Origin: Nitrospirales bacterium
GTDB lineage: Bacteria; Nitrospirota; Nitrospiria; Nitrospirales; UBA8639
NCBI GenBank assembly: GCA_021604105.1
Contig: BQIW01000042.1
Location: forward strand, 1 to 37,449
DNA: 37,449 bases
Direction of reading: 5' to 3'
The stretch's first letter is position 1. Each line of letters opens with the position of its first letter. The notes beneath the pieces were generated by a model. The model was not told where the DNA came from and did no database searches. It saw only the letters and a list, made by a program, of their open reading frames with translations. Shown in pieces: positions 9,179-29,492 of this stretch. Both the position numbers and the translations under genes were made by a program.

Positions 9179-10615
9179 ATGCGTTCTGTCTATGGCCTCT
9201 TTTTGTCGGCGGTGTTGCTTATGTCCTGTGCCATGGGACCGGACTACTCACGGCCCGTCATTAAAACGGCTGACCAGTTTCGCATGTCCGACACCGAAGG
9301 GGAATCGATCGCGAATCTTCCCTGGTGGGAATTACTGCACGATGAGGAATTGCAAAAACTCATTCGTGTGGCGTTGGAGGAAAATAAAAACCTTCAGGAA
9401 GCCGCTGCCAGTGTCGAGGAATTTCAAGCTCGAGTGTTCATCGAACGCATGGATTTTGCGCCTCAATTAAGTACACAACTCAATGCTCCGGTCTTAGGGA
9501 AGTTTGGCGGTTTTGCCGTACAGGGATTTCCGAGCAACTTTAGTTTTTTTGGAACCGGAAATTTGAATTGGGAGATTGATATCTGGGGACGCATTCGTCG
9601 GTCAAATGAAGCAGCATTAGGCGATCTGCTTGCCCGCGAGGAAAATCGACGGGCCGTTATCCTTCAGTTGGTCAGCGGTGTGGCGTCCGCGTATTTGGAT
9701 CTGTTGCAATTCGACATGCAGTTGGATATTGCCAAGCGAACACTTGGTTCCTGGGAAGAATCGGTGAAAATTGCCCGTGCGCGATTACGACAAGGGGTGA
9801 GTTCAAGACTCGATGCAGATCAATTTGAGGCGGAACGGGCCAATGCTGCGGCACGGGTTGCTGAATTCGAGCGGCTCATGGTGCAGAAAGAAAACGAACT
9901 GAGTGTTTTCCTTGGCCGGAACCCCTTTAGGATTCCTCGAGGCCAGGTTCTCACTGAGCAGATTTTTCTGCCAAAGGTCCCGCCCGGCCTCCCTTCGGAA
10001 TTGCTTCAGCGCCGTCCGGATATCGTACAAGCCGAACACGAACTGGCAGCGGCGACTGCCCGTATCGGGGTCGCGAAAGCGGAACGGTTTCCCAAGTTCT
10101 CGATTACGGGTATTCTTGGTCTCGCAAGCCCCCAACTTTCAAGTCTGGTCAGTTCCGGCAGTGAATTTGGGCAAGCCGGACTGGGACTCACCGGTCCGTT
10201 GTTGAATGCCCAGATTCTGGGGTTTCAACAAGAAGCCGTGGTTGCTCAGGCGAAGCAGGTGTTGGCGCAATACGAGCAGACCATTCTTGTGGCATTTAAA
10301 GAAGTGGAGGATGCCCTGGTGGCCGTGCGCACGGCCGAATCCCAACGGATTGCCCAGAAGGAACAGGTGAAGGCTCTCCGATCGGCATTGCGTTTGGCGG
10401 ATCTTCGCTATAAAGGGGGCCTGACCAGTTATGTGGATGTGCTCATCGCCAAACGAGATTTATTCGATGCCGAACTTGAACTCACCTCTACTCATCGTTT
10501 GCATTTGGTGTCGATGGTGCAACTCTATAAAGCGTTGGGCGGAGGATGGTCCCCGGAATCTCCGGAAGGAACCCTCGCCATCTCCAACCCATCATCACAA
10601 CAAACACCATATTGA
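9179..10615 (+). CDS. Outer-membrane efflux factor, OprM/NodT-type lipoprotein
   Basis: From the ATG at 9179 the product has 478 residues. A short leader (MRSVYGLFLSAVLLMSC) gives a lipobox Cys at 17, followed by the family's GPDY(S)RP opening. Two repeats of the TolC-like outer-membrane factor fold follow, with signatures AYLDLLQFD, LRQGVSSRLDADQ and RRPDIVQAEHELAAATARIGVAKAE cut across the strand and helix segments. A ribosome site GGAGA lies 7 bases before 9179, one base after the pump stop; another ATG at 9164 would overlap the pump. It forms the trimeric exit duct of the tripartite pump. No recognisable terminator follows. Confidence 0.93.
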   Translation: MRSVYGLFLSAVLLMSCAMGPDYSRPVIKTADQFRMSDTEGESIANLPWWELLHDEELQKLIRVALEENKNLQEAAASVEEFQARVFIERMDFAPQLSTQLNAPVLGKFGGFAVQGFPSNFSFFGTGNLNWEIDIWGRIRRSNEAALGDLLAREENRRAVILQLVSGVASAYLDLLQFDMQLDIAKRTLGSWEESVKIARARLRQGVSSRLDADQFEAERANAAARVAEFERLMVQKENELSVFLGRNPFRIPRGQVLTEQIFLPKVPPGLPSELLQRRPDIVQAEHELAAATARIGVAKAERFPKFSITGILGLASPQLSSLVSSGSEFGQAGLGLTGPLLNAQILGFQQEAVVAQAKQVLAQYEQTILVAFKEVEDALVAVRTAESQRIAQKEQVKALRSALRLADLRYKGGLTSYVDVLIAKRDLFDAELELTSTHRLHLVSMVQLYKALGGGWSPESPEGTLAISNPSSQQTPY

Positions 10616-11664: not shown

Positions 11665-13116
11665 ATGGGTTTGTTTATGCATTTTCGAAGAAAAGTTTTA
11701 ATTAAATTAATGTATTTCGGGGACCTGCTTTTGCTCGGCATTTCCTTATTGGGCGTATTGTGGATGTTCTATGCACAAAACAACAGCCTACTTGCCTTTG
11801 AGGAATTCCTGGCGTTGCGAATTAAACTTGAAAATTTTCTGGTAGGGGCTTTCATTGTAGGAATCTGGCACGTCGGGTGTGCCTCCTTTGGACTGTATGA
11901 ATCCAGGCGTCTGTCTACCATTTCCCAAGAGATACCGGATATTCTTAAGGCCACTTCGCTGGTAGCCTTCGTAACAGGAGGAATCGCTTTCTTTTTTCAA
12001 ATAGAAATGGTTTCGGCTGGGGTACTTCTAAGCTTTTGGATCCTTTCGACGGTCTTGATATGCCTTAGCCGGGTAGGTGTGCGAATAACTTTGGCATGGA
12101 TGAGACGTAAGGGAAGAAATTTACGCAATATTCTCATCATTGGCACCAATCCACGTGCATTAGCATTTGCTAGAGAAATTCAAACCAAACCTGAATTGGG
12201 ATACCGTCTACTGGGATTTGTGGATGAGCCGTGGGATGGACTCAACCATGAGCACCTTGGGAATGTTTCTATTCTATCTGATCTTAAAAAATTTCCTGGA
12301 TTTATTCGAACGTTTTCGGTTGATGAAGTGCTCATCGCCCTTCCCTTTCGCTCGTTTTATCAGGAAGCCGCCCAAGTCGTGGCCCAATGTGAGGAGCAGG
12401 GTATTCTCGTTCGTGTGTTAGGTGATCTTTTTTCCCCGAGACTGGCCAAGTCTTCCATTGACGAAGTGGGACCCCATCCCACGTTCAGCCTCAATACCGG
12501 AGCCATAGGAGACCAGGCCATTTTAATCAAACGAGCCATTGATTTAATCATTGCCCTGCCTTCGGTTATTCTTCTCCTCCCATTTTTTGCAGTTGTCGCA
12601 GTGGCCATCAAATGCACGTCTCCCGGCCCAGTTTTTTTTATCCAGGAGCGAGTCGGATTGAATAAACGGTTATTTCCATTCATCAAATTTCGGACAATGG
12701 TGCAGGGAGCCGAATTGCAGCAGGTGGAACTTGAACATTTAAATGAGGTGGATGGAGCCGCGTTTAAGATTACCAATGATCCTCGAGTGACTCCACTTGG
12801 ACGCTTGTTGCGAAAAACAAGTATCGATGAATTACCTCAGCTTATAAATGTCATCAATGGAGACATGAGTCTGGTAGGCCCACGTCCGCTCCCGGTTCGA
12901 GATCTTCAGGAGTTTTATGAGGATTGGCATCGTCGACGCTTTAGCGTCAGACCAGGCCTTACTGGTCTGTGGCAGGTCAGTGGACGAAGTTCTACTTCAT
13001 TTTCAAAATGGATGGAACTTGACCTGCACTATATCGATAAGTGGTCCATCTGGTTGGACCTCAAAATCTTATTTAAAACCATTCCGGCTGTAATGAAAGG
13101 AAGTGGGGCGGTTTAG
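11665..13116 (+). CDS. Polyprenyl-phosphate sugar-1-phosphate transferase (WbaP/WcaJ type)
   Basis: The 483-residue membrane enzyme starts repeat-unit synthesis by moving a hexose-1-phosphate (identity unknown) from a UDP-sugar to undecaprenyl phosphate. The N-terminal third has four hydrophobic helices, then a CoA_binding_3-like Rossmann segment ([17 protein letters not shown], about residue 150). The C-terminal bacterial sugar transferase domain starts with [18 protein letters not shown] (re-entrant helix) and shows FIKFRTM, the catalytic Asp388-Glu389 in [16 protein letters not shown] and [13 protein letters not shown]. It is the first gene of the + arm. The ribosome site is weak and a second ATG lies 12 bases later. 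The next gene begins 35 bases after its stop. Confidence 0.93.
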
Positions 13117-13151: not shown

Positions 13152-14198
13152 ATGCCAAAAACTGCGCTTATTACTGGAATAACCGGACAGGATGGGTCTT
13201 ATCTGGCCGAACTTCTGCTTGCCAAGGGATACGCCGTTCATGGAATAATCAGGCGGGCCAGTACCTTTAATACCGCTCGTATTGATCATATTTATGCGGA
13301 TCCTCATGATCCCCATGCAAAGCTCTTCCTTCATTATGGCGATCTCAGCGATTCAGGTCAGTTGACCAATCTCATTTATAATACGCAGCCTCAAGAGGTC
13401 TATCATCTCGGAGCGCAAAGCCATGTCCGGGTGAGTTTTGATACTCCAGAATATACCGGCGATGTGACGGCTCTCGGTACTACCCGGATCCTTGAGGCTA
13501 TAAAACGAAGCGGGGTTTCCTGCAGATTTTATCAGGCTTCCTCAAGTGAAATGTTTGGAAATGCCGTCCCCCCTCAATCCGAAGATACCACCTTTTATCC
13601 GCGAAGTCCCTATGGAGCGGCAAAGGTCTATGCCTATTGGATGACCGTCAATTACCGTGAGGGGATGAATTTATTCGCGTGCAACGGAATTCTTTTTAAT
13701 CATGAATCCCCCCGACGGGGAGAAACCTTTGTCACCAGGAAAATCAGCCGGGCAGTTGCGCATATAAAAGCTGGAAAACAAAAAGATTTGTATATGGGAA
13801 ATCTTGATGCCAAGCGGGATTGGGGCTTTGCGCCAGAGTATGTAGAGGGCATGCACCATATGCTTCAAATGGATACTCCGCATGATTTCGTTCTGGGCAC
13901 CGGAGAGACCCACACGGTACGGGAGTTTGTCGAGGAAAGCTTTGGGTACGTTGGTCTCGATTGGCGTGATTTCGTGAAGGAAGACCCGCAGTATCTACGT
14001 CCAACCGAAGTTGACGTCCTGGTTGCCAATCCTGAAAAGTCCAATAAATTACTCAAATGGCAACCTCGTATCACCTTCAAACATCTTGTTAGAATCATGG
14101 TCGATGCGGATATTCGAAAATTAGGAATGGAACCTAATGGAGATGGAGATTCCATCCTTCGCCAGAAATTTCCACATAGGTGGTGGAAGGGTGATTAA
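13152..14198 (+). CDS. gmd: GDP-mannose 4,6-dehydratase
   Basis: The 348-residue extended SDR converts GDP-mannose to GDP-4-keto-6-deoxymannose in the cytosol. The Rossmann motif is [11 protein letters not shown] (G9, G12, G15), the substrate loop shows RRAS(T)FN and LHYGDLSDS, and the catalytic pair is Y154 and K158 in [28 protein letters not shown] and [10 protein letters not shown] are hallmarks of Gmd. Length is close to the family's 340-375. Together with the fucose synthase downstream it gives GDP-L-fucose. No GDP-mannose-making genes are in the window, so mannose activation must be encoded elsewhere. The start codon has only a weak upstream ribosome site. Confidence 0.96.
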
Positions 14199-14306: not shown

Positions 14307-15290
14307 ATGAAGCTAAACAGTAAGATATACATAGCCGGTCATACGGGTATGATGGGTTCGGCTTTTCTTCGGCAACTTCAGGCCCGAGGCCAGACACATA
14401 TTCTCACCCGAACTCGACGGGAACTGGACTTGACGAATCAGGCTGCGGTTCAAGACTTTTTTGAAAAAGAGAAGCCGGAGTATGTTTTTGTGGCGGGAGC
14501 CAAGGTAGGAGGTATCTTGGCAAATGCCACCTATCCGGCCGATTTCATTTATCAGAATCTGGCGATTCAAACCAATATCCTACATGCGGCCAATCGGTCC
14601 GGAGTGGAACAACTATTATTTCTGGGGAGCGTGTGTATTTATCCCAAGCATTGTCCTCAGCCAATAAAAGAAGATTATTTGCTGACCGGTGCACTTGAGC
14701 CGACGAATGAACCCTATGCGATTGCCAAAATTGCAGGATTGAAAATGTGCCAGGCGTATAATCGACAGTATGGGACGAAGTATTTATGTGCGATGCCAAC
14801 GAACCTGTATGGAACCGGGGATAATTTCGATCTGGAAACGAGCCATGTATTACCTGCCCTCATCAGGAAATTTCATGAATTGAAGGTTTCCGGCACTCCT
14901 GTTACTCTCTGGGGTACCGGTCAAGCCAGCCGGGAATTTCTCCATGTTGATGATTGTGCGAACGCCTGTATTTTCCTCATGGATCTGGATCCTGAACGAT
15001 TCCAGACCTTACTACAATATCCCGCCGGTCCCCTGGTGAATGTCGGGAGTGGAGAAGACATCAGAATCGTGGAGCTGGCAGAAAGGATTAAGGACCTTAT
15101 TGGGGCATCGGGGCAGATCAATTGGGATGCCAGTAAACCAGACGGAACCCCCAAGCGGAAACTGGATATAACCCGTCTTCATGCGCTGGGTTGGCAACCA
15201 AGCATATCGCTTTCAGAGGGCATCAAAATGACCTACGACTGGTATTTGCGACACGAAACGTCTGTGCAACTCAGGGAGGCTCATTCTTGA
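14307..15290 (+). CDS. fcl: GDP-L-fucose synthase (GDP-4-keto-6-deoxymannose epimerase/reductase)
   Basis: The 327-residue SDR carries out 3,5-epimerisation and 4-keto reduction to GDP-L-fucose. The motif IAGHTGMMGSAF holds the NADP-binding glycines. FLGSVCIYPKHCPQPIKE contains the Cys and Ser of the active site, and EPYAIAKIAGLKMC gives Y137 and K141. ATNLYG-type (MPTNLYGTGDNFD) and LWGTGQASREFLHVDD segments are diagnostic. It lies 108 bases after gmd and its last codons overlap the next gene's TTG start. With Gmd it shows that the polymer very probably contains L-fucose or a derivative. Confidence 0.95.
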   Translation: MKLNSKIYIAGHTGMMGSAFLRQLQARGQTHILTRTRRELDLTNQAAVQDFFEKEKPEYVFVAGAKVGGILANATYPADFIYQNLAIQTNILHAANRSGVEQLLFLGSVCIYPKHCPQPIKEDYLLTGALEPTNEPYAIAKIAGLKMCQAYNRQYGTKYLCAMPTNLYGTGDNFDLETSHVLPALIRKFHELKVSGTPVTLWGTGQASREFLHVDDCANACIFLMDLDPERFQTLLQYPAGPLVNVGSGEDIRIVELAERIKDLIGASGQINWDASKPDGTPKRKLDITRLHALGWQPSISLSEGIKMTYDWYLRHETSVQLREAHS

Positions 15291-16123
15291 ATCCTGTAAG
15301 AATGTTCCCCTCCTCAAATCCGCCCGACTTATCTGATCCCTTACTGATGGCGGCCAGACACCATTCTCCTTGTCCACCAAAGTTCAATCTGTTCGGCATC
15401 GGGGTGAGTCGAACGGATTATCATGAAGCTACAACCATCCTAATTCAGGCAGCCCAGGAACGTCACTCCATGATCGTGGATCATATGCCCGTTCATGGCC
15501 TCATCGAAGCCTGTTCAGATTCTTTCTTGAAAGACAAAATCAACCAGTTTGATATTGTTGCCCCGGATGGGCAGCCGGTTCGCTGGGCTTTGAATCGATT
15601 CCATCAAGCCAATCTTTCTGACCGTGTATATGGTCCGGAGTTAATGCTTCGCTTATGTCAACAAGCCGAGCAAAAAGGTATTGGTGTGTATCTCTATGGA
15701 AGCCAATCAGTGGTTTTGGAAAAATTACAACAAAAACTTCTTCACCGGTTTCCTTTATTGCGAATTGTGGGAGCTGAATCTCCTCCCTTTCGACCACTCA
15801 CGCCAGAGGAAGATGAGGCCACCGTTGCCAGAATCAATCGGAGTGGCGCCGGGCTTATTTTTTTGGGATTGGGATGTCCCAAACAGGAGCATTTTGCCTT
15901 TGATCATCGGCACAAAATTTATGGTGTTCAATTGTGTGTCGGTGCGGCCTTTGATTTTCATGCCGGCACGAAGAAAATAGCACCGCCATGGATGCAACGA
16001 AACAGCTTAGAATGGGTATTTCGTCTGTGGTGTGAGCCCAAGAGATTATGGCAACGATATCTTTTCACGAATTCTATCTTTTTATGGAAAATTCTGAGGA
16101 GGGAATTGGGTCCCTTGAAATGA
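15287..16123 (+). CDS. WecG/TagA/CpsF family glycosyltransferase (GT26)
   Basis: The start is taken as TTG at 15287 because AGGGAGG (15273-15279) lies 7 bases before it and it overlaps the fucose-synthase stop as TTGA, a typical coupled junction. The open frame itself extends about 100 bases further upstream. From there the product has 278 residues. Family motifs follow in order: IVAPDGQPVRWALN, RVYGPELM, YLYGSQ, GLGCPKQE and VGAAFDFHAGT, then MQRNSLEWVFRLWCEP near the C-terminus. WecG-type enzymes transfer ManNAcA, ManNAc or glucuronic acid to a lipid-linked first sugar. The donor here is unknown. The protein should act at the inner face of the membrane as the second step after the priming transferase. 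Confidence 0.92.
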   Translation: MNPVRMFPSSNPPDLSDPLLMAARHHSPCPPKFNLFGIGVSRTDYHEATTILIQAAQERHSMIVDHMPVHGLIEACSDSFLKDKINQFDIVAPDGQPVRWALNRFHQANLSDRVYGPELMLRLCQQAEQKGIGVYLYGSQSVVLEKLQQKLLHRFPLLRIVGAESPPFRPLTPEEDEATVARINRSGAGLIFLGLGCPKQEHFAFDHRHKIYGVQLCVGAAFDFHAGTKKIAPPWMQRNSLEWVFRLWCEPKRLWQRYLFTNSIFLWKILRRELGPLK

Positions 16124-16285
16124 ATAATCGAAAAATTATATCTTCCGCTTTCTTTGCTTCCAGGCTGATTCTTTTATTCTGATCGGTTCGATCGATATGC
16201 ATAAAGTTTAATTAATACATTTAATACTTCCATCTATTTTTATCCTATTATTCATAATATAGACAATTTAACCGTGAGGAAAGCC

Positions 16286-17389
16286 GTGAAAATTCTTTGC
16301 CTTGGCGGAGCTGGATTTATCGGGTCTCATCTAACAGCACGACTCCTTAAAGAAAGACATACCATCACTGTGGTCGATCAAGATCACGAAAAAATCCAGG
16401 AGTGGGTCGGTTTGGATAATCTGAGAATCATCAAAGAAGATATTCGAAGGCCAGATTGGGGCTTGATGGAACTGGTTCAAGACGCGGATGTGGTCATTGA
16501 TTTGATTGCCTATGCGAACCCTGGGTTATATGTAAAAATGCCATTGGAAGTATTCCGTTTAAACTTCACTGAAAATTTAAAAATTGCCGAGGCATGCGTA
16601 GCACTAAAGAAACGTTTAATTCAATTTTCAACGTGTGAAGTTTATGGGAAAACTCCTGCTAGTTTCATGAATGGTCATTTGCTGGAAGCTGACGATCCCC
16701 TTCATGCTACTTTCTCGGAAGACACCACAAACCTAATCATGGGGCCGGTTAATAAACACCGTTGGATTTATGCTTCAGCCAAACAATTATTGGAGCGTGT
16801 CCTTCACGCCTATGGTCTAGAAATTGGTTTTAACTACACGATTATCCGGCCATTTAATTTTATCGGCCCCAAGATTGATTTTCTCCTAAGTGAAAATGAC
16901 GGAATACCGCGAGTCTTTTCTTTTTTTATGGATGCACTGCTTTCTGGAACAGATATGAAACTTGTGAATGGAGGTCATAACAGGCGTTGCTATACCTATA
17001 TAGATGATGCCGTTGAGGCTATTTATCGTATTATCATGGATGTAAATGGTGTCTGTAACAGGGAAATATTCAATATTGGGACTCCTGGAAATGAGATTTC
17101 AATCAGGGAATTAGCAAACAAAATGCAAGATATTTATGTTCGAAGGTACCCTAGAACTGATGCACCCCTACCGCAAATTGTCGATGTTTCCGGGGAAGAA
17201 TTTTATGGAAAAGGCTATGAAGATTCAGACAGGCGAATACCGGACATTTCAAAGGCAGAGGCGTTAATTGGCTGGAAGCCCCAATGGGGATTAAACGAAT
17301 TGTTAGAGAGTACTATGGATTACTATGTTGATCACGTGAACACGACACAGGCAAAGAATGTATCGCCTCTTAAAGAAACTCATATTTAA
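16286..17389 (+). CDS. ArnA-decarboxylase/UDP-apiose-synthase-like NAD-dependent enzyme
   Basis: The 367-residue extended SDR is preceded by GAGGAAA; a GTG at 16274 is also in frame. The Rossmann glycines are in GGAGFIG (7-13). The catalytic region reads STCEVYGKT (Cys117, Glu118) and RWIYASAKQLLERV (Tyr162, Lys166), followed by RPFNFIGPKIDF, GGHNRRCYTYIDDAVEA and FYGKGYEDSDRRIPDI. From memory, this matches the ArnA C-terminal domain (UDP-glucuronate decarboxylase) and plant UDP-apiose/UDP-xylose synthase (AXS). Cys after ST is the AXS form (ArnA has Ser), whereas the position of the other AXS catalytic Cys is Ala77, as in ArnA. The likely substrate is UDP-glucuronate and the likely product a UDP-pentose or 4-keto-pentose. 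It is 162 bases from its upstream neighbour. Confidence 0.85.
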   Translation: MKILCLGGAGFIGSHLTARLLKERHTITVVDQDHEKIQEWVGLDNLRIIKEDIRRPDWGLMELVQDADVVIDLIAYANPGLYVKMPLEVFRLNFTENLKIAEACVALKKRLIQFSTCEVYGKTPASFMNGHLLEADDPLHATFSEDTTNLIMGPVNKHRWIYASAKQLLERVLHAYGLEIGFNYTIIRPFNFIGPKIDFLLSENDGIPRVFSFFMDALLSGTDMKLVNGGHNRRCYTYIDDAVEAIYRIIMDVNGVCNREIFNIGTPGNEISIRELANKMQDIYVRRYPRTDAPLPQIVDVSGEEFYGKGYEDSDRRIPDISKAEALIGWKPQWGLNELLESTMDYYVDHVNTTQAKNVSPLKETHI

Positions 17390-17528: not shown

Positions 17529-18680
17529 GTGAAAATACTGCATATCTTTCATGATTTACTTGAAACCGGAGGGACTCCGTTCCAAGTAAGGAACTTGGTT
17601 CAAGCCCAGGCTGATCTTGGCAACGATGTTCTTGCTGTTTCTTATAAGGGTGACTCGGAAAAGATTCCCTCTAATGTTAAGTCTGTCCACTTGGGAAAAG
17701 GTTTGCGCAGTATTTTGCAATTTCGGAAGGTATTGCAATCGTTTAAGCCTCACATTATTCATTTATCAGGTATCTGGATTCCGGTACATCATGTCTGGTT
17801 AAGAGAAGTTTTTCGTTTTGGCGCACCCTGTATTATTTCAACCAACGGGAATTTGAGCCCCCATGGGTTCGGTGTCCGTTTTGGAGGAAAGCCAACGAAT
17901 TTTTACCATATTTGGAGAAAGGCGCTATGGCATAAGTATTTTGATGCTCCGATGCTTAGGGCCGTAGCATGTGTTCATACGCCATCAAAATACGAAGCCG
18001 AAATTCTGACCGAGCTTGGAGTCACCAATCGGTTTGTTGCGCCAGTCGGTATTAATTCATCCTGGGTAAAGGCTCGGCCATGTGATGGTAGGAAATTGCA
18101 TGATCCCGTGACATTTTTACATTTAGGTCGACTGGACATTTTCCACAAAGGATTGGATTTAGTTTGCGATGCGGTCGAAATCCTCATGCGTTCCCGAAAT
18201 CAAAAGCCATTCCGAGTGATTCTGGCGGGTCCTTCAGTAAATGGTTCTATGGAAAAACTTAAAAAGCGTGTATCGGGAATAGGAAACAAGGTTTTTGATT
18301 TTAGAGGTTTTGTTTCGGGAGAGGAGAAAAATTCCCTTTGGACGGAGGTAGATTATTTTCTTAATGTGTATCGTTATGCGGGAATTGCGCTTGCTCCCTG
18401 TGAAGCCTTAGGAAATGGTATCCCACTCATTGCGTCCATGGAAGGGAACCTTGGAGATTGGACCGAGCGAATGAACATGGGAATAGTTGTCCCTCTAAGT
18501 TGTGAGCATTTAGCTGATGAGATGGCTACGGTGTTGAAATATTCAGAGGATATTTATCAACGGCTCTCAGGGAATGCAGTGAATTTTTGTATGACGTATT
18601 CCTGGGGAAAAGTAGCACAAGACTTGGTCGATGAATATAAAAAGATCATTGATGACTATTCCCGTGAGAGTCGGCCATGA
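17529..18680 (+). CDS. Glycosyltransferase family 4
   Basis: This 383-residue GT-B fold enzyme begins with GTG at 17529 in a weak ribosome context. The N-terminal domain opens MKILHIFHDLLETGGTPFQ, where the glycine-rich loop contacts the acceptor. The C-terminal donor domain carries GRLDIFHKGLDLV, VILAGPS, and a nucleotide-sugar region with APCEALGNGIPLI, which takes the place of the canonical EAxxxGxPV retaining-GT motif. Donor and acceptor are not predictable. It sits between the sugar-nucleotide enzyme and the flippase, so it should add a sugar to the lipid-linked repeat unit at the cytoplasmic side. The 139 bases before it contain no gene. Confidence 0.9.
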   Translation: MKILHIFHDLLETGGTPFQVRNLVQAQADLGNDVLAVSYKGDSEKIPSNVKSVHLGKGLRSILQFRKVLQSFKPHIIHLSGIWIPVHHVWLREVFRFGAPCIISTNGNLSPHGFGVRFGGKPTNFYHIWRKALWHKYFDAPMLRAVACVHTPSKYEAEILTELGVTNRFVAPVGINSSWVKARPCDGRKLHDPVTFLHLGRLDIFHKGLDLVCDAVEILMRSRNQKPFRVILAGPSVNGSMEKLKKRVSGIGNKVFDFRGFVSGEEKNSLWTEVDYFLNVYRYAGIALAPCEALGNGIPLIASMEGNLGDWTERMNMGIVVPLSCEHLADEMATVLKYSEDIYQRLSGNAVNFCMTYSWGKVAQDLVDEYKKIIDDYSRESRP

Positions 18681-18735: not shown

Positions 18736-19980
18736 ATGGTGTTGAATCACTGGGGAAAAAGAGGCGGCATTTCACTTGTTGACCAGGGAGTACACGGAGG
18801 TACGAATTTTCTCATCAACATTATTCTCGCTCGTTGGTTGAGTCCTCACGAATATGGGGCATTTGCCGTAGCATATACTATTTTTCTTCTTATTGGTGCC
18901 ATTCACACTTCAGCAATAATCGAACCAATGATGGTTTATGGAGCACGAAAATACATAGAAACATTCAGAGGGTATATTGGAAGTCTCCTATTAGGACACG
19001 GAATTTTCTCTCTGCTGGTCTGTGTTATTTTAATCAGTTCTTCTTTGACATTCTTAGCATTTGACTCTATCGAGCTGTCTGATGCCTTTCTGGGTTTAGC
19101 CATTGGAAGTCCTTTTATTCTTCTACAGTGGATGATTCGCCGAAGTTTCTATGTAATTTCTCATTCAGTATGGGCTCTTGCCGGAAGTATTATGTATTTC
19201 ATATTGAATGCGTTGGTAATTTTTCTCCTTTATCAGAAGGCTTCGCTAAGTCCGTTTTGGGCATTTTTATCAATGGGTCTAATAGGTTTACTTGTGAGTG
19301 TTTGTCAGATAGGCATCCTGAAGCCTGAGTTTAAATGGACTGGGCCTTTGAGCCTTTCTTCGATATTCCATGATCATAGGGAGTTCGGAGCATGGAATAT
19401 CATTGGAACAATTATCAAATGGGCGTCGACAGGTATTTTAACCATTATGGTGTCGGCCTTTCTTGGTCTAAAATCTGCTGGAATCTTGTCCGCAGTGCGA
19501 ATCCTTTTTCGTCCCTTAGATCTTATTTTAAATGCTGTATCATTGGTGGCATTACCCGTACTATCTTCCGTGCAAGGCGAGAATGCTTCAATTGACCTTC
19601 GCAGGAAATTGCATGGTCTACTTTGGTTGGTCTGTGGAACCGTAGCGATATACGGCATTCTTCTCTCCTCATTTTCTGAATTCATCATTCATTATCTCTA
19701 TAAGGGACTTTATGATGGTCATCGTAACCTTTTTGTGTTGATATCTCTCAGCTTTGTTGCGTCTTCCTTTGTGTTTGTTTTTACGCTGGGTCTTAAATCG
19801 ATTGGAATTACTCGGGAAATTGCCAAAATCTGGAGCACGTCCGCACTTGTTGTTTTCGTTGGTTCAATTCCGATGATTCATATCTGGGGAATTCCTGGAG
19901 CGTTGACTGTCCAAATACTTTCCACGTGTATCGCTGGGTATCTTTCCTGGTTGGGAGTGAGGCGGAAAATTGTTGCGTAA
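18736..19980 (+). CDS. Wzx-type polysaccharide flippase
   Basis: The 414-residue integral membrane protein shows about 12 hydrophobic segments. It opens with GKRGGISLVDQGVHGGTNFLINIILARWLSPHEYGAFA, written here in pieces: the RGG and Q-x-x-x-x-G-T-NF residues and the EYG(A)F turn are typical of the polysaccharide transport branch of the MOP superfamily. Charged residues are scarce inside the helices. It would flip the undecaprenyl-linked repeat unit to the periplasmic side for the polymerase encoded at 26241. The gene is 55 bases after a glycosyltransferase and 16 bases before the next one. The length is at the short end of the family. Confidence 0.9.
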   Translation: MVLNHWGKRGGISLVDQGVHGGTNFLINIILARWLSPHEYGAFAVAYTIFLLIGAIHTSAIIEPMMVYGARKYIETFRGYIGSLLLGHGIFSLLVCVILISSSLTFLAFDSIELSDAFLGLAIGSPFILLQWMIRRSFYVISHSVWALAGSIMYFILNALVIFLLYQKASLSPFWAFLSMGLIGLLVSVCQIGILKPEFKWTGPLSLSSIFHDHREFGAWNIIGTIIKWASTGILTIMVSAFLGLKSAGILSAVRILFRPLDLILNAVSLVALPVLSSVQGENASIDLRRKLHGLLWLVCGTVAIYGILLSSFSEFIIHYLYKGLYDGHRNLFVLISLSFVASSFVFVFTLGLKSIGITREIAKIWSTSALVVFVGSIPMIHIWGIPGALTVQILSTCIAGYLSWLGVRRKIVA

Positions 19981-19996: not shown

Positions 19997-21181
19997 TTGA
20001 AGATTTTGCATTGGTATCCAAATCTTTTGAGAGGTGGTGCTGTTGCGAATGGAGTATTGGGTTTATCCCATAGTCAGGCGAAACTTGGAGCAGATGTTGT
20101 CATCGCGAGTGCTAGCACAACTACGGAACCATTGTATTATCCCATAGACCGCCCTAAGGATGTTGAGTTTTACGAATGGTGCCCAAGATGGTTTATGAAT
20201 TATCGAGGGCGAGGTTTGCGTATCCTGTCTAGGAATACAATTAAAAAATTACAATCATTCGACCCTGAAATTGTGCACGTCCATGGCGAATTTAATATAG
20301 ATAATTTGCACACGTGTAGAATTTTTCATTGTCCAGTTGTATTGAGTCCCCGTGGGGCATTTGCCCCAAGACTCTTAAAGAGAGGAGTAGGAGTGTGGGG
20401 GGGGAAATATGCCTATCTTAAGCTAGCCAAAAAGATTTTATATGAAAAAGTCGTCGCATTTCATGCACTTTCCCCATTGGAGAAAGTGCAAATTGAGGCC
20501 GTCCTTCCAGCGAGTCAGGTGTATTGTGCTGCTCAAGGACCAAATCTTCAATTAGAAAAAGATCTGGTTCCTGCAGGGGTGAAAGACGGAAGCGTTGATG
20601 AAATACAATTGCTCTGTGTGGGTAGATTGGATGTCTACACAAAAGGATTGGATTACTTGATTCAGGCTTTTGCATATGCCGCTAAACGTATACAAGGGAA
20701 ACGTCTTTGCCTAAGACTCATTGGCCCAGATTGCAAGGGCGGAAAAGAACAACTGAAACGATTGGCTCGAAGTTTAGGCGTCCTTGGGCATATCAGATTC
20801 GAGGGTGTGGTAATAGGCAAGGAACTAATACAGGCATTGAAGACATCTGATATTTATGTCCAGATGTCGCGACATGACGGTTTTGGGCAAAGTGTTTGTG
20901 AGGCGTTACTGATGAATATGCCTGCTATTCTTTCTCGCGAAATCGGTTGTATATCATATGCAAATATTGAGGATATGGCGCATATAAGAAAAGTTCCCCT
21001 AAGTGGAGGTGAGGCGGGTAATGCCATCATTGACTGTGCTGCACGCCTTACAGAACTTAAGGCATTGGCAAAGACTCATAGTAATCAGTTGCGGACCATT
21101 TTTTCTTGGGAAAGTGCAGCCCAGGCACATCTTAATGCTTATGCGAAATTTTCCGGATGTCCACTGCCAGCGGGCAATTAA
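19997..21181 (+). CDS. Glycosyltransferase family 4
   Basis: The 394-residue GT-B protein starts with TTG after AAAAGGAAAA. The opening MKILHWYPNLLRGGAVANG has the acceptor-side glycine loop, and HVHGEFNI and SPRGAFAPR are typical of GT4 enzymes from polysaccharide loci. The donor-binding half shows GRLDVYTKGLDYLIQAF, LIGPDCKGG, and SRHDGFGQSVCEALLMNMPAI, whose E-x7-P pattern matches the retaining GT4 nucleotide site. The sugar transferred is unknown. It lies immediately after the flippase and 7 bases before the nucleotidyltransferase/kinase fusion gene. Confidence 0.9.
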   Translation: MKILHWYPNLLRGGAVANGVLGLSHSQAKLGADVVIASASTTTEPLYYPIDRPKDVEFYEWCPRWFMNYRGRGLRILSRNTIKKLQSFDPEIVHVHGEFNIDNLHTCRIFHCPVVLSPRGAFAPRLLKRGVGVWGGKYAYLKLAKKILYEKVVAFHALSPLEKVQIEAVLPASQVYCAAQGPNLQLEKDLVPAGVKDGSVDEIQLLCVGRLDVYTKGLDYLIQAFAYAAKRIQGKRLCLRLIGPDCKGGKEQLKRLARSLGVLGHIRFEGVVIGKELIQALKTSDIYVQMSRHDGFGQSVCEALLMNMPAILSREIGCISYANIEDMAHIRKVPLSGGEAGNAIIDCAARLTELKALAKTHSNQLRTIFSWESAAQAHLNAYAKFSGCPLPAGN

Positions 21182-21188
21182 TAATATT

Positions 21189-22583
21189 ATGCAAAGGGAT
21201 CAAGTGTTCGTAAATGAGCGCATGAGGCAAGCAATGCCAAACGACCTGTCTGAGGGATTTTTGGCATCAAACCTCTTTCGATTCTTTGAAAACGAGGGAA
21301 TTTGTTATGTCCTGGTTGGGGATTCTCGGGAGTATCCAGCAAAAATACTGAGTGATGTGGATTTAGTTATTCAGCCGGAGTGTGTCAGTAACCTTGTTCC
21401 CTGTCTGATGAAGTTTTGTGACCTTTATAATTTAAAGATTGTTCAAATTCTTCAGCATGAGCAATCGGCGTGGTTTTTTGTTTGTACTTGGACGGGTAAT
21501 GATGGCAAACACCATGTTTTTTATCCCGATGTTTGCACCGATTATATTCGCCGGGGAAGGCGATTTTTAAGTGCTCGCGGCTTGTTGTCCGGGCGTATTC
21601 GAAAACACATTGACTCAGATGCTCAGCAATGTTCGTTTTTTGTGCCAGCCCCGGAGCAGGCTTTTATCTATTACCTGTTGAAAAAAATTGATAAAGGCCA
21701 CCTGGCTCAAAGCCATCAATCCTATCTGAGTGGAGAATGGAAGAAAGCCCGGAAGGAATCAAAAAAGCAATTGCAAGAATTTTGGAGTGAGCCGGAAGTA
21801 GAAATGCTTTGCGAAGCAGCAGAATCTAATTCGTGGAATGAGGTTTGTGATGCATTGCCTAGGCTACGGAAGGCACTTCGCGGGAATCTCGCATTTTCAT
21901 GGAAATATTTTGCACGAGATGTGCAAAGAAAAATTCAAAGAATTATGAAGCCAACTGGAATTCATGTTGTCCTCCTTGGGCCAGATGGGTCCGGGAAAAG
22001 TACCATTCTGGAGCATATTGAGGAATCACTGGCACCTGCCTTTCGTAGGACGAAGCGGTATCATCTTAGACCATTTTTGGGAAGGCGCAAACTTACTAGA
22101 GCGCCGGAGTTGAATCCGCATGGTAAGCGGGTGAGGGGATTGTTGACTTCCATGATCAAGCTGGGTGTCTGGTGGATTGATTTTACCATTGGATATTTTG
22201 CCAGTGTATTTCCTTGTCTGGTTCGTTCGACGCTTGTTTTATTTGATAGATACTATTTTGATTTACCCATTGATCCTAAACGATATCGATATGGTGGTCC
22301 TCTTTGGTTAGCGAAGCTTTGTGGGAAATTGATACCTCGTCCGGACCTCGTGATATTGTTGGATGTTCCGGCAGAGGAATTGTTTTTGCGAAAAGCCGAA
22401 GTTGCGATAGAGGAAAGCCATCGACAACGACAAGCGTACCGTGAATTTGTCGGCACCTTGCCAAATGGACATATCATTGACAACTCGGAACGATTAGAGG
22501 AAACAATTCAGAAGGTAGAGGCTGTAGTCCTCAATTATATGGAGATCCGTGCCATCTCCAGCCTTGGTCATGTTAAACAATGA
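21189..22583 (+). CDS. Nucleotidyltransferase-like/thymidylate-kinase-like fusion protein
   Basis: The start is uncertain; ATG at 21189 (7 bases after the previous stop) gives 464 residues, and an ATG at 21234 has a nearer GAGG. The N-terminal half resembles a nucleotidyltransferase fold (YVLVGDSREYP followed by LSDVDLVI, a D-x-D pair). The C-terminal half is a P-loop kinase: Walker A GPDGSGKST at 264-272, a DRYYFD motif as in dTMP kinases, LVILLDVPAEELFLRKAE, and a lid-like HRQRQAYREF. Such fusions are found in polysaccharide loci, but their substrate is not established to my knowledge. It is directly followed by an APH-fold kinase gene. A role in phosphorylating a glycan intermediate or nucleotide sugar is only inference. 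Confidence 0.75.
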   Translation: MQRDQVFVNERMRQAMPNDLSEGFLASNLFRFFENEGICYVLVGDSREYPAKILSDVDLVIQPECVSNLVPCLMKFCDLYNLKIVQILQHEQSAWFFVCTWTGNDGKHHVFYPDVCTDYIRRGRRFLSARGLLSGRIRKHIDSDAQQCSFFVPAPEQAFIYYLLKKIDKGHLAQSHQSYLSGEWKKARKESKKQLQEFWSEPEVEMLCEAAESNSWNEVCDALPRLRKALRGNLAFSWKYFARDVQRKIQRIMKPTGIHVVLLGPDGSGKSTILEHIEESLAPAFRRTKRYHLRPFLGRRKLTRAPELNPHGKRVRGLLTSMIKLGVWWIDFTIGYFASVFPCLVRSTLVLFDRYYFDLPIDPKRYRYGGPLWLAKLCGKLIPRPDLVILLDVPAEELFLRKAEVAIEESHRQRQAYREFVGTLPNGHIIDNSERLEETIQKVEAVVLNYMEIRAISSLGHVKQ

Positions 22584-22584
22584 G

Positions 22585-23607
22585 ATGAGGGCTCTGAGTC
22601 TCTTTTCATCAGATTCGCAGGTTAGGGCCCTTCCTACTTCCAGAAACCCCCGTTTACTACTTACTGGGTCGACGGTAAAACGTCGCTGGCAGGAGAGTGC
22701 TTTATACCCTGCTCATAGAAGAGTTGCCAAGTGGTATCGATTTTTCCTGCGCTTAAAAGTGGCAACAGGATTGGGTTTAATTGCCCCCGTAATAAATGAT
22801 CACTCAAAGATCAACGACTTCATAAAGGACATTTTTCCCGATGTTGATTCCGCGGCACTCCTCATTGGTTCAGCAGGACCAAATCAGAAAAATATTATTC
22901 AATTATGGAGTCGGGAAAGAGGGGTCGTTGGGTACATAAAATATGCCGAGACACTCATTGCTCGATCCAGACTAGAAAACGAGTACAAGATGTTGGGGTG
23001 TATTCCTAAAGGAATCGGTCCGGACATACTGAAGTACACCTCATTTAACGATGGGAAAGCCCTGGTCCTCAGTCCGATATTCGGACGAGCTATGCCAGTA
23101 AATTTGCCTCCCCCGTACTGGATTCACGAATTTCTGAATGGTCTTCAGATCTCACCGTGCATGGGAATCAACGAACACCCAGGCGTAAGATTTTTTCAGG
23201 AAAAATACGGCAGTGTGGTCCTGCCCTGGCTCGAGTCTCTTTCTCAACGAAAATGGCCCGTTGTGGTATATCATGGTGATTTTGCACCATGGAACGTACT
23301 GCATTGGTCCCATGGAAGTGTCGCTGCGATAGATTGGGAGTATGGATTGTCAGAATCCCTTCCGCACCTGGATTTAATCCATTATTTTTTACAAGTCGGG
23401 CGCTTGATCCGGTTTTGGGCTCCACGCCAGGCAAGGGTATTTGTCATTAACTACCTGCTGAGACACTGTTCATTGGGTCTTAACGAGATAGAAGGGCTAG
23501 TGAGCTTGTCAGCTTATCATGCATATCGCGAGGCAATTGTGGACGGTCATGTGGAAAATTCAAATCGTGTTCTTTGGTGGAGGTCCGTATGGGAGTGCGA
23601 GAGGTGA
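22585..23607 (+). CDS. APH/choline-kinase-fold phosphotransferase
   Basis: The product has about 340 residues; GTG at 22549 and ATG at 22570 are alternative starts and none has a strong ribosome site. The kinase fold is shown by YIKYAET (nucleotide-binding Lys), RSRLENEYKML (helix-C Glu), the Brenner motif HGDFAPWN (His230, Asp232) and the metal-binding AIDWEYG (Asp250). All catalytic residues are present, so it is probably active. The family phosphorylates hydroxyls of aminoglycosides, choline or sugars. In this setting a sugar, lipid-linked unit or ethanolamine/choline acceptor is conceivable. It begins one base after the fused kinase stop and overlaps the following glycosyltransferase, so the three are tightly coupled. 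Confidence 0.75.
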   Translation: MRALSLFSSDSQVRALPTSRNPRLLLTGSTVKRRWQESALYPAHRRVAKWYRFFLRLKVATGLGLIAPVINDHSKINDFIKDIFPDVDSAALLIGSAGPNQKNIIQLWSRERGVVGYIKYAETLIARSRLENEYKMLGCIPKGIGPDILKYTSFNDGKALVLSPIFGRAMPVNLPPPYWIHEFLNGLQISPCMGINEHPGVRFFQEKYGSVVLPWLESLSQRKWPVVVYHGDFAPWNVLHWSHGSVAAIDWEYGLSESLPHLDLIHYFLQVGRLIRFWAPRQARVFVINYLLRHCSLGLNEIEGLVSLSAYHAYREAIVDGHVENSNRVLWWRSVWECER

Positions 23608-24842
23608 AACGACTAAAAGTCTTGATCTCAGCCTATGCTTGTGAACCGGAAAAAGGTTCGGAATCTGGTGTTGGGTGGAACGTGGCTCTGCAAATGGCAA
23701 AGTATCATGACGTCTGGGTAATCACCCGCAGCAATAACCGATCGAGCATTGAAGCAGCCTTAAAACGTTGTGACCAGCCTAAGCCACATTTCCTCTACTA
23801 CGATCTCCCCAAGTGGATCCGGTTCTGGAAGAAGGGGGGGAGAGGCGTCAGAGCCTACTATTATATGTGGCAAATGGGAATATTGATATTGATTCGAAGT
23901 CTGCACCGGACCATGAACTTCGAACTGATCCATCACGTGACGTTCGTGAAGTTTTGGACGCCGAGTTTTCTATCCTTTCTCCCAATTCCATTCTTGTGGG
24001 GTCCTATTGGTGGTGGAGACACGACCCCCGTAGTGCTGCGTACGGAGTTGGACTTTAAGAGTAAAATGTACGAGACGGGTCGACATCTGGCTTTGTGGAT
24101 AGGAGAGCATGATCCGTTTGTTTGGCGAACGGCAGCAAGAAGTCGGATGGGAATCGCCACAACAAAGGAAACGGCATGCCGCTTAAGAAAGCTGGGTGTA
24201 TCTAATATAAAACTCTATGGTGAGGCCGGGCTAGAAATGAGTGCGATTGCTCAACTTACGCAATCCTCGAAGCGGTCGGATTCTTCGTTTAGGTTTGTGA
24301 CAATTGGAAGATTGTTAGGGTTTAAAGGGGTTTTTTTGGCGCTACGGGCATTTGCACAAGCCAATCTGCTGCATTGTGAATATTGGATTATCGGTGATGG
24401 TCCGGACAGAAGGAGATTGGAGAAACTCGTGGAATCTCTTGGTATTGCAGAGCGAGTAAAATTCTTTGGGGAAATTCCCAGGTCTAAAGTGTTGAGTAAA
24501 CTCGGCGAATGCAACGTGCTTGTACACCCCAGTTTTCATGAATCAGGTGGCTGGGTCTGTTTGGAGGCCATGGCCGCTGCACGACCCGTAATTTGCCTGG
24601 ATCATAGTGGACCTGCCACGCAAGTGACGGACAAAACCGGAATACTCATTTCTGTAAATTCTACCGAACAGGTGTTACGGGATATGGGAGAGGCAATGCA
24701 AAAGTTAGCTTATACCCCTTTTCTTTGCGAACAGATGGGCAGAGCTGGGCGGGAAAGAGTGTTGCAAGATTATAGCTGGGATTCCAAGGTTGATGTTCTC
24801 AATGAATTCTATCATGAAGTGGCACTCCAGGGATCGCCGTAA
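23589..24842 (+). CDS. Glycosyltransferase family 4
   Basis: The 417-residue enzyme takes its start at ATG 23589 because GGAGG lies 5 bases upstream; a GTG at 23604 overlaps the kinase stop by 4 bases and is an alternative. It opens with a KVLISAYACEPEKGSESGVGWN stretch (the ACEP..GSE.GVGWN signature of a GT4 subgroup), followed by an acceptor-side HHVTFVKFW and PFLWGPIGGGD. The donor half shows TIGRLLGFKGV, IGDGPDRRRLE and HPSFHESGGWVCLEAMAAARPVI, with the conserved E-x7-E spacing. Substrates are unknown. It is separated by 145 bases without a gene from the next glycosyltransferase. Confidence 0.9.
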   Translation: MGVREVKRLKVLISAYACEPEKGSESGVGWNVALQMAKYHDVWVITRSNNRSSIEAALKRCDQPKPHFLYYDLPKWIRFWKKGGRGVRAYYYMWQMGILILIRSLHRTMNFELIHHVTFVKFWTPSFLSFLPIPFLWGPIGGGDTTPVVLRTELDFKSKMYETGRHLALWIGEHDPFVWRTAARSRMGIATTKETACRLRKLGVSNIKLYGEAGLEMSAIAQLTQSSKRSDSSFRFVTIGRLLGFKGVFLALRAFAQANLLHCEYWIIGDGPDRRRLEKLVESLGIAERVKFFGEIPRSKVLSKLGECNVLVHPSFHESGGWVCLEAMAAARPVICLDHSGPATQVTDKTGILISVNSTEQVLRDMGEAMQKLAYTPFLCEQMGRAGRERVLQDYSWDSKVDVLNEFYHEVALQGSP

Positions 24843-24987
24843 AACGATTGTGTCATGATCTCGTATGACTCAGCCTGACACATTGGCAGAGTCGCATATC
24901 CTCTATGGGTAGATGTCAGATAACCTTTTCATCCAATTTTCTTTTCCGTAGACCACTGCTCAAGAAAAGACAGGTCCGATAACAACA

Positions 24988-26190
24988 ATGGAAAATAAGC
25001 TTAGGGTTTTGATTGTCCACAATTTTTATCAAGAGCCCGGTGGGGAAGACGAAGTATTTGCCGCCGAAGGCCGACTCCTCGAAGCGAATGGCCACAAGGT
25101 TATTCGGTATACCTTACATAACGACTCTATACAAGAAAACTCTATGGTTGACCTTGCAAAGGCATTAATTTGGAATAACAAGGTGTATCATGCTCTTCGT
25201 AGACTTATTCAACGAGAACGCCCGCAAGTCGCCCATTTTCATAATGTCTTCCCATTAATTTCCCCTTCAGCCTTTTTTGCAAGTCGGGCGGAGAAGGTCC
25301 CCGTCATATTAACGCTGCACAACTATCGGCTTCTGTGTTCCAACTCACTTTTTTATAGAGATGGAGAAGTATGTGAGGACTGTCTTGGAAGTATTTTCCC
25401 AATTTCCGGAGTTATTCATCGGTGCTACAGAGGGAGTCGAGTAGAAAGTGCTGGTGTAGCGGCCATGCTCAGTATCCATCGAATGATGGGGAGCTGGAAA
25501 TACAAGGTCAATACATTTGTTGCGCTCACAGATTTTGCCAGGCAAAAATTTATTGAGGGAGGACTTCCAGAAAAGAAGATTGTAGTTAAACCGAACTTTG
25601 TTGAGCCTGACCCGGGTTTTGGTAGGGAGAAGGTACAAGATTACGCGTTATTCGTTGGTCGGCTTTCCTCAGAGAAGGGACTTAGTACGCTTTTAAGGGC
25701 CTGGTCAGCGTTGCATGAGCGTATACCACTCAGGATTATTGGCGATGGGCCGCTTGCCCACCAGGTTCAGGATGCCTCTAGGACTATAACGGGAGTTGAA
25801 TGGTTAGGAAGACTGAAAAAGACCGAGGTCTTATTGGCCATGAAGCAAGCGATGTTTTTGGTCTTTCCATCCGTTTGGTACGAAGGACTTCCGATGACAA
25901 TCATTGAAGCGTTTGCCGTCGGATGTCCCGTCGTAGGTAGTGCCATTGGGGGAGTGAAAGACTTGATTGTTTCGGGGAAAACGGGCCTTCATTTTCGTCC
26001 TGGTGATGCAGAGGATCTGGTGGAGCAAGTGACATGGGTGCTGGCTCACCGAAGCCAAGTTTTGGAGATGCGGAGTCAGGCTAGGTTAGAGTATGAAACC
26101 CGTTATTCGAATGTTAAAAACTATAAAGATTTAATGGATATATACGACCAAGCTAGGAGTAGGGAAACGGCAACGGTTTTTGCTCAATAG
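24988..26190 (+). CDS. Glycosyltransferase family 4 with Cys-rich insertion
   Basis: The 400-residue GT-B protein opens with VLIVHNFYQEPGGEDEVF, the acceptor glycine loop. A short segment near residues 112-150 has LLCSNSLFYRDGEVCEDCLG and a later HRCYRGSR; the spaced cysteines (CEDC with a third in HRC) are found in a GT4 subgroup and might bind a metal. The donor half has GRLSSEKGLSTLLRAW, IIGDGPLAHQV and PSVWYEGLPMTIIEAFAVGCPVV. Ribosome site is weak. The following polymerase gene begins 50 bases downstream. Its job is probably the last or a branching transfer in repeat-unit assembly. Confidence 0.9.
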   Translation: MENKLRVLIVHNFYQEPGGEDEVFAAEGRLLEANGHKVIRYTLHNDSIQENSMVDLAKALIWNNKVYHALRRLIQRERPQVAHFHNVFPLISPSAFFASRAEKVPVILTLHNYRLLCSNSLFYRDGEVCEDCLGSIFPISGVIHRCYRGSRVESAGVAAMLSIHRMMGSWKYKVNTFVALTDFARQKFIEGGLPEKKIVVKPNFVEPDPGFGREKVQDYALFVGRLSSEKGLSTLLRAWSALHERIPLRIIGDGPLAHQVQDASRTITGVEWLGRLKKTEVLLAMKQAMFLVFPSVWYEGLPMTIIEAFAVGCPVVGSAIGGVKDLIVSGKTGLHFRPGDAEDLVEQVTWVLAHRSQVLEMRSQARLEYETRYSNVKNYKDLMDIYDQARSRETATVFAQ

Positions 26191-27821: not shown

Positions 27822-29492
27822 TTATTTTGTTAAAGTTGGAGGGGGAGCAGGAGGATAGATACAATCCATTGCCAGGTTTGTCGCAAGCGAGTCTGGATGT
27901 ATGAAAAAGGAATTTTGATCTTGATTTGCAGTTGATTGCCATTCAGGGAAACGAATACTTTTCCCTCCTTCGCCTAGTCGAAAAGCTCCAGGAATGGACG
28001 GCTTCATCCATATATTCCCATCGGAAAATAAGCCATTCAGGAAAAAGGAATGGGGGTCTGTTATCAATAAGGCATGATCACCGGAGATGATATTATTCGT
28101 TAATCGCCATCGTTCCGTTTTGTGCTCTGTTCTTTCACCCGTCTCCCAATTGTTCACCATTCGAGTGAATGGAGCCTGTACAATAATTTGATAGCCCCGG
28201 TTGGCATAAATTCGGCTTCCGGTTAATGTAAGATCTGGTGTTTGCACCGTTCTAAATCCCCATTGATTGTTCTGGTAAATTTTGGCGTTGGTGATTGTAA
28301 TTCGTTCACTGGCTTCGACGAATAATCCATACGTTCGGTTTCCGCACCAACGACCGTCTTCCATGCGAATATTTCGATTATCATAGTCTAACCAAAAACC
28401 CGTGGTGTGATTTCCGCGGGCTATGTGTCGTCTGAAGATAGCATCGTGGATTTGTACGGCCTTCATGCCAGCCACTCCCCAATGTACGAAATCTCCCTTT
28501 ACACCTCTCCAATTGTTACGTAACGTTTTGTCGTCTTCAGATAGGAGGTTTTTGATCTTAGCGAGCTGATATCCTGAGGCCCCATTGTTCCTGGCTTCAT
28601 TTCGTTTGCTTGTCAAGTTTTGGATGTTGTGCAAAAAATAACCCATGCCATTATTCCAGGAAAAGAGAAGGTCTTCTAAGGTGACATTGTTTCCATCCGT
28701 GATGACTAGGGCGCTACCGAGAAAATCAGAAGCCGCATGTTGAAAGGTTAAGCCTTTGAGTACAAGATTTGTTTTTCCTTTGATAAGTACCGGACGGCTA
28801 CGAATGGCAACTTCAATTAAGCTTTCAGAAGGGGCTACTCCTTCAGGTAGAGCGATGAAAATTTGACTGGTGCTTTCTGTTGCAAAAAATGTCCCAGCTA
28901 CTAATTCGGTTGACGATAAAACCTGTTTTAATGGAATTCCATTGACGAAAACCATCTCTTTCCTTCTCACAATATGACTGACGTTGACCCTGCCCTTCCA
29001 ACTCTCAGGAAGTGATTTGACCCCCCACTTATAGGGCCAGCTATGAACGAAGATATTGGGGGCTTTTGTAGATTTCCAGTTTCGAAAAATATCTGCCCCA
29101 GAAATAATGGCTTTGCCAATTTCGGTCGCCTCAAAGATAATTGGAGGATCTGAATCTTGTTGGTTGACGATTATTTGGAATTTTTCTCGGTAGACTCCAG
29201 GGGCCACAAGAATTTTTGTTCCAAGTCCAAGCGCACGATTTTCAATGGCAATTGTTGTGGCCTTCCCCAAGGTTTTGAGTGGCAAATTCGCGGTTCCCGG
29301 ATTAGAATCAGAAGCGGCTAGGTGTTTATTGTTGACGTGGATGGTTCGAGCTACCTCTATGAGTCCTAAGGGGAGCGGCGCCCCATAGGAACTAGCTTGC
29401 AATACATTTGGTAAGCCTAAGACTATTAATATTGAATACAACTTCACATAGTTTACAGCGTTCACCTTGAGATGTACTAAAACCTTTTTCAT
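27822..29492 (-). CDS. Secreted right-handed beta-helix protein (paralogue A)
   Basis: The 556-residue protein starts at 29492 with AAAGGAGCG six bases upstream. The N-terminus is basic, then hydrophobic (LYSILIVLGLPNVLQA), a likely signal peptide. The mature part opens with the ASDSNPGT..LPLKTLGKA motif (DUF1565-like start of pectate-lyase-fold proteins) and PGVYREK, and continues with beta-helix coils containing GFWLDYDN, GLFVEAS and IYQNN. Possible roles are binding, epimerising or cleaving the secreted polysaccharide; no catalytic triad can be identified. It is a close relative of the protein at 30031-31671 with shared REMVFVNGI, NWETGER and GNH words. It is the last gene of the - strand arm. 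Confidence 0.85.
   Translation of the reverse strand: MKKVLVHLKVNAVNYVKLYSILIVLGLPNVLQASSYGAPLPLGLIEVARTIHVNNKHLAASDSNPGTANLPLKTLGKATTIAIENRALGLGTKILVAPGVYREKFQIIVNQQDSDPPIIFEATEIGKAIISGADIFRNWKSTKAPNIFVHSWPYKWGVKSLPESWKGRVNVSHIVRRKEMVFVNGIPLKQVLSSTELVAGTFFATESTSQIFIALPEGVAPSESLIEVAIRSRPVLIKGKTNLVLKGLTFQHAASDFLGSALVITDGNNVTLEDLLFSWNNGMGYFLHNIQNLTSKRNEARNNGASGYQLAKIKNLLSEDDKTLRNNWRGVKGDFVHWGVAGMKAVQIHDAIFRRHIARGNHTTGFWLDYDNRNIRMEDGRWCGNRTYGLFVEASERITITNAKIYQNNQWGFRTVQTPDLTLTGSRIYANRGYQIIVQAPFTRMVNNWETGERTEHKTERWRLTNNIISGDHALLITDPHSFFLNGLFSDGNIWMKPSIPGAFRLGEGGKSIRFPEWQSTANQDQNSFFIHPDSLATNLAMDCIYPPAPPPTLTK

Follow-up and report, generated by a model that had tools for sequence, protein, structure and literature searches.

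What does a nucleotide-sugar enzyme make when its active site carries one residue as in plant UDP-apiose/UDP-xylose synthase (AXS) and another as in ArnA? The question is raised by an open reading frame (ORF) at positions 16286-17389, on the plus strand, of contig BQIW01000042.1 from a Nitrospirales bacterium (assembly GCA_021604105.1). The whole stretch of DNA that was analyzed, 37,449 nucleotides long, is referred to as the window. A preliminary description had noted the mixed signature and named UDP-apiose, UDP-xylose or a 4-keto sugar as possible products. The observation itself, i.e. the ORF and its signature, is confirmed, and the interpretation is partly supported: the enzyme appears to belong by descent to neither the AXS nor the ArnA group, and with somewhat better than even confidence we take it to be an NAD-dependent UDP-glucuronate decarboxylase that would supply UDP-xylose and/or UDP-4-keto-xylose to the surrounding exopolysaccharide cluster.

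The ORF is a single intact frame of 367 amino acids with a GTG start codon, and the strand opposite it has many stops and no open frame. The first possible start of the same frame lies 12 bases upstream, at 16274; the MKIL start of the related proteins matches 16286. A match to the Pfam Epimerase domain (133.8 bits), hits in the Protein Data Bank (PDB), a tree and a structural model together identify the product of the gene as a UDP-glucuronate decarboxylase-like enzyme of the extended short-chain dehydrogenase/reductase group. In the PDB chain search Arabidopsis AXS1 came first (6h0p and 6h0n, 277 and 275 bits), followed by ArnA (246 bits), with human UDP-xylose synthase (UXS) far lower at 97 bits. 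The AlphaFold model has a sound fold (mean predicted local distance difference test score, pLDDT, 76.8), and its structural ranking was similar: AXS1 6h0n (TM 0.88) stood above AXS1 C100A (6h0p, a mutant whose entry title gives NADH and substrate in the structure), ArnA (0.85) and human UXS (0.75). Stretches 77-83, 118-127 and 142-164 of the model, which make up the active site, have pLDDT values below 50, and the active-site geometry is not used as an argument here. By alignment, all the signature residues of UDP-glucuronate decarboxylases, as tabulated in Table 3 of PMC12820599, are kept in the window protein (Thr116, Glu118, Arg159, Tyr162, Lys166, Asn191, Arg317 and Tyr82), and these place it in the decarboxylase group to which it had already been assigned.

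Two cysteine positions set the known enzymes apart. According to the same table, human UXS and E. coli ArnA have Ala at the first and Ser at the second, and plant UAXS has Cys at both. The window protein contains the motif FSTCEVYGKT as well as the tail YGKGYEDSDRRIPDI, which is AXS-like as had been described. By alignment its Ala77 (codon at 16514-16516, plus strand) occupies the position of AXS Cys100, and its Cys117 (codon at 16634-16636, plus strand) that of AXS Cys140 and ArnA Ser433. After STCEVYG follows an extra loop of about residues 122-145 (16649-16720, plus strand), of a length common to AXS and the bacterial UDP-apiose synthases (bUAS) and lacking in ArnA and UXS. Prokaryote genomes were scanned, and in the 21 relatives so obtained, with 50-78% identity, Ala is found at the first position in all 21 and Cys at the second in 20 (the exception, L029, has Ser). 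Since the pairing is conserved across the relatives it is not due to chance. The claim of a mixed AXS/ArnA signature is supported.

The other groups show other combinations. Plant AXS has Cys/Cys and the long loop, and shares with the window enzyme the fold, the general decarboxylase residues, Cys140, the loop and the YGxGYxDSDxRIPD tail; AXS differs in having Cys100 where the window has Ala, and the window enzyme lies outside the clade of AXS and bUAS. The bUAS of the XpUAS, GrUAS and YpUAS type share the fold, a similar loop length and the NP that follows the Cys100 position, with 40-42% identity for the two that were compared, but have the opposite cysteine pattern: the three sequences of this type (L031, L032 and L034, i.e. 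YpUAS and two relatives) keep Cys100, have Ser at position 140 and carry the long loop. In the ArnA/U4kpxs type, 37-40% identical to the window protein, all 15 rows read Ala/Ser, so that Ala is shared and Cys117 is replaced by Ser, and the loop has 9 residues as against 24, i.e. 15 fewer. UXS has the same signature residues and likewise Ala at the Cys100 position (two out of two), but Ser at 140, no loop and only 28-31% identity.

This distribution bears on the use of STCEVYG as evidence for apiose in the preliminary description, which is not supported: bUAS-type sequences have the reverse pair, and because they carry Ser at 140, Cys140 is probably not required for apiose formation. In an Acidobacteriota-centered search, in which 44 of 297 genomes gave a match, the 29 loci read had Ala/Ser, as had all ArnA-type loci read from three further genome-set searches (296, 297 and 297 genomes, the first two overlapping earlier sets); among the loci read from these three, no AXS-like bacterial sequence with Cys100 was found. 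Six relatives also occur on contigs classed as viral, of which five (L111-L115) are of ArnA type by motif (Ala/Ser) and one is more distant.

The relatives all come from metagenome bins, and as labelled in their records they derive from Nitrospirota, Acidobacteriota, Calditrichota, Actinomycetota, Thermodesulfobacteriota, Verrucomicrobiota and Bacteroidota. The same Ala/Cys pair is present in a haloarchaeal plasmid protein with 49% identity (L030, 11983-13059), whose gene belongs to a glycan cluster that also contains methyltransferase and oxidoreductase genes. In another locus (L010) a truncated copy, 43 residues long (9998-10129), of the first part of the decarboxylase stands directly ahead of the intact gene and is the trace of a partial duplication.

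A maximum-likelihood tree was calculated from 43 rows, leaving out the loop and the columns of the two cysteines. The window protein fell outside the ArnA/U4kpxs group (15 rows, support 97/94), i.e. a firm placement within the ArnA-type decarboxylases, which would have spoken against the preliminary description, was not obtained. It also fell outside the group formed by AXS and three bUAS (98/99). Together with its relatives it forms a clade of its own, here called the query clade, with support of 99/96 for a 17-row core and 89/89 for all 21 rows. A Halomarina sequence with a long branch joined AXS (82/91). Deeper relationships are less firm: a group made up of the query clade, AXS and Halomarina is supported at 70/73, and neither the alternative joining the query clade with ArnA (p-value of the approximately unbiased test, p-AU, 0.407) nor the one joining it with Halomarina (p-AU 0.105) was rejected. 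At 18 positions that separate AXS and bUAS from the ArnA types, the query clade has the AXS residue at six, the ArnA residue at five and a residue of its own at three, and is variable at the remaining four. Some residues are fixed in the query clade and peculiar to it, e.g. Asp72, His158 and Ile197. From the tree groups and these positions, the window enzyme is to be placed in a third clade, separate from ArnA/U4kpxs and from AXS/bUAS and derived from neither.

Gene order adds another layer of information on the query clade. A family 2 glycosyltransferase (GT2) is encoded directly downstream of the decarboxylase in 13 of the 21 relatives, often by an overlapping gene, with the spacing running from an 8-base overlap to 210 bases (e.g. 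L012, 4643-5386; L019, 11339-12085), and these GT2 copies are 64-77% identical to the one in L012. Among solved structures the GT2 comes closest to dolichol-phosphate mannose synthase (49 bits), with a weak match to ArnC (24 bits), and its top NCBIfam matches are polyprenyl- and dolichyl-phosphate sugar synthases, all far under their cut-offs. Membrane proteins are also found nearby, namely PMT_2 in L012 and L025 and GtrII in L026. Read in the simplest way, this gene order suggests that the UDP-pentose made by the clade usually goes to a polyprenyl-phosphate-pentose synthase, in an Arn-like route without amination. The likeness to the Arn pathway (ArnA-ArnC-ArnT) lies in the adjoining GT2 that resembles polyprenyl-phosphate sugar synthases; the difference is that none of 25 stretches (the window and 24 related ones) had a homologue of ArnB, ArnD, ArnT, ArnE or ArnF at E 1e-4. 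The window itself lacks this GT2 and its genome has no close copy (best 36% identity over part of the sequence); in this lineage the decarboxylase gene is instead part of an exopolysaccharide cluster. A literature search gave no described example of a lipid-linked plain-pentose pathway, which is weak evidence of novelty. Beside the decarboxylase of eight of the 21 relatives there is also a family of multi-helix membrane proteins of about 590-700 amino acids (e.g. L023, 1734-3500; L020, 8023-9936). The two members scanned were not recognized by Pfam or NCBIfam, the model of the membrane protein beside the Acidobacteriota copies is poor (mean pLDDT 58.7), and that the family might consist of GT-C glycosyltransferases is no more than a guess.

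Which product, then, is to be expected? In the favored reaction, bound NAD+ would oxidize C4 of UDP-glucuronate, the C6 carboxylate would then be lost, and the resulting 4-keto-pentose would either be reduced back to UDP-xylose or be partly released as UDP-4-keto-xylose. Without the thiol of Cys100 the retro-aldol contraction of the ring to apiose should not occur. In a mechanistic paper of 2019, Cys100 is reported to move the C3' proton during ring contraction. Passages of PMC12820599 give Cys100 a key role in proton transfer and in opening the ring, and passages of PMC7984243 agree on its central role. Since this residue is Ala in the window protein, xylose or 4-keto-xylose is a likelier product than apiose. 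The pentose would probably be used by a glycosyltransferase of the exopolysaccharide cluster, which also has genes for GDP-fucose. The substrate can probably be made in this genome, in which two nucleotide-sugar dehydrogenases score above the TIGR03026 cut-off; one of these is closest to the UDP-glucose dehydrogenase TuaD, although below the cut-off of the TuaD model.

Some of the data weigh against a xylose or 4-keto-xylose product. Identity is slightly higher to AXS1 (42%) than to ArnA (40%), the extra loop is shared with AXS, and the largest share of the 18 group-separating positions is that with AXS. Furthermore, an ordinary UXS is encoded elsewhere in the genome (L002, 336 bits to human UXS), so that UDP-xylose can probably be made there and a second maker is not obviously needed.

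The closeness to AXS1 and the shared loop would fit a UDP-apiose/UDP-xylose synthase that contracts the ring without Cys100, perhaps by way of Cys117, which is as in plant AXS; this we consider unlikely, though not negligible. AXS1 is the best match in both structure and sequence. In passages of PMC5607165, XpUAS, GrUAS and CeUAS are reported to make both UDP-apiose and UDP-xylose when assayed, and CeUAS (from Entotheonella) is given as 43% identical to AXS1 and 44% to XpUAS; YpUAS (WP_066111466.1), 64% identical to XpUAS, is named there but was not assayed. We identify L032 as very probably this YpUAS, because its neighbors, WP_066111464.1 and WP_066111468.1, flank that accession. The five query-clade members compared are 40-43% identical to AXS1 and 35-44% to YpUAS, so that CeUAS, a maker of UDP-apiose and the most distant of the assayed bacterial enzymes, stands at much the same distance from AXS1 and XpUAS as the clade does from AXS1 and YpUAS. 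Compared in this way by published identities only, CeUAS may lie near the query clade and share its Ala/Cys signature, which also speaks against the favored products, and this possible nearness to the clade is why apiose keeps the probability that we give it. On the other side stand the replacement by Ala of the residue named as key in PMC12820599 and the Ser140 of YpUAS, itself not assayed, by which Cys140 is probably dispensable. In eight genomes carrying the gene, a search for GT90 homologues of the X. pisi apiosyltransferase came out empty, but the controls gave no match either and this says little.

An ArnA-like enzyme, whose real product would be the UDP-4-keto-pentose, passed on to an aminotransferase, reductase or epimerase, seems rather unlikely. 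It would agree with the presence of a separate UXS that already serves xylose, and with an ArnB/PseC-like aminotransferase elsewhere in the genome (43% identity to ArnB); this aminotransferase, however, is on another contig, beside a gene similar to UDP-GlcNAc 3-dehydrogenase, and homologues of ArnB and ArnD were absent from the window and the 24 related stretches. No gene recognized as taking up a 4-keto pentose was found in the window. The NCBIfam model PRK11908 was considered as proof of a U4kpxs and rejected. The window protein does exceed its cut-off (321 against 294 bits), but the model hardly discriminates: AXS1 (290.5) and the bUAS-type sequences miss the cut-off by just 4 to 51 bits, members of the query clade score above as well as below it (L009 has 293.2), and a true U4kpxs reaches 694.

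Similarly unlikely is a fourth natural solution to UDP-glucuronate decarboxylation, with the thiol at 117 and not at 77, in which the ring would be opened or contracted from the other side to give apiose or another rearranged pentose; in most lineages this would be loaded on polyprenyl phosphate by the neighboring GT2 and moved by membrane glycosyltransferases, as a lipid-linked pentose route lacking the amination of Arn. Action on a different NDP-uronate or a different reaction, such as 4-epimerization, might be expected of a versatile family with clade-specific fixed residues (Asp72, His158 and Ile197), but is very improbable given that the residues for the carboxylate and its loss, Glu118, Arg159 and Arg317, are all kept.

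The surroundings of the gene in the window are consistent with a role for the decarboxylase in polymer synthesis, as had been suggested, since its neighbors are polysaccharide genes. The genes listed in this paragraph lie on the plus strand. Upstream are a polyprenyl glycosylphosphotransferase that initiates synthesis of the repeat unit (11665-13116; TIGR03025, 422 bits, cut-off 296), a GDP-mannose 4,6-dehydratase, Gmd (13152-14198; TIGR01472, 501 bits, cut-off 415), a GDP-L-fucose synthase-like (Fcl-like) protein (14307-15290; NF047922, 468 bits, just under the cut-off of 500) and a glycosyltransferase of the WecG/TagA/CpsF family (15191-16123; TIGR00696, 165 bits, cut-off 69). The last ORF overlaps the preceding gene, and its true start is probably internal. 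Directly after the decarboxylase comes a GT4 glycosyltransferase (17529-18680; Pfam Glyco_trans_1_4), found in the same place in L009 and L058 and a candidate user of the decarboxylase product. It is followed by a flippase-like polysaccharide exporter (18736-19980; Pfam Polysacc_synt, 33.5 bits), another GT4 identified by Pfam scan (19997-21181) and two further GT4 proteins (23574-24842 and 24988-26190, together spanning 23574-26190).

Two kinase-like ORFs (21003-22583 and 22549-23607), with a thymidylate-kinase-like P-loop and an APH-like match just under its cut-off, lie inside the polysaccharide cluster and are both conserved in L009 and L058. A chain-length gene is found on the opposite strand, as are two right-handed beta-helix proteins (27822-29492 and 30031-31671) that are possible polymer-modifying enzymes. 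In L058, of the same genus, both gene content and gene order are as in the window, at 81-95% identity, and in L059 the genes are kept up to the decarboxylase while the remainder differs. Of 20 sampled genomes of the genus only three have the decarboxylase gene, which is consequently an accessory gene. A literature search gave no paper on UDP-glucuronate decarboxylases in Nitrospira exopolysaccharide.

Taken across the family, the residue combinations amount to a natural two-by-two experiment: Ala/Ser in UXS and ArnA, Cys/Cys in plant AXS, Cys/Ser in the bUAS type and Ala/Cys in the clade of the window enzyme. The last is the missing corner, and bears on whether Cys100 alone sets apiose versus xylose. 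If the clade makes no apiose, an AXS-like STCEVYG in a genome would be no evidence for apiose, and a naming trap would be closed. Furthermore, with a GT2 gene as the conserved neighbor in 13 of the 21 relatives, a lipid-linked pathway for plain pentoses may exist in several phyla.
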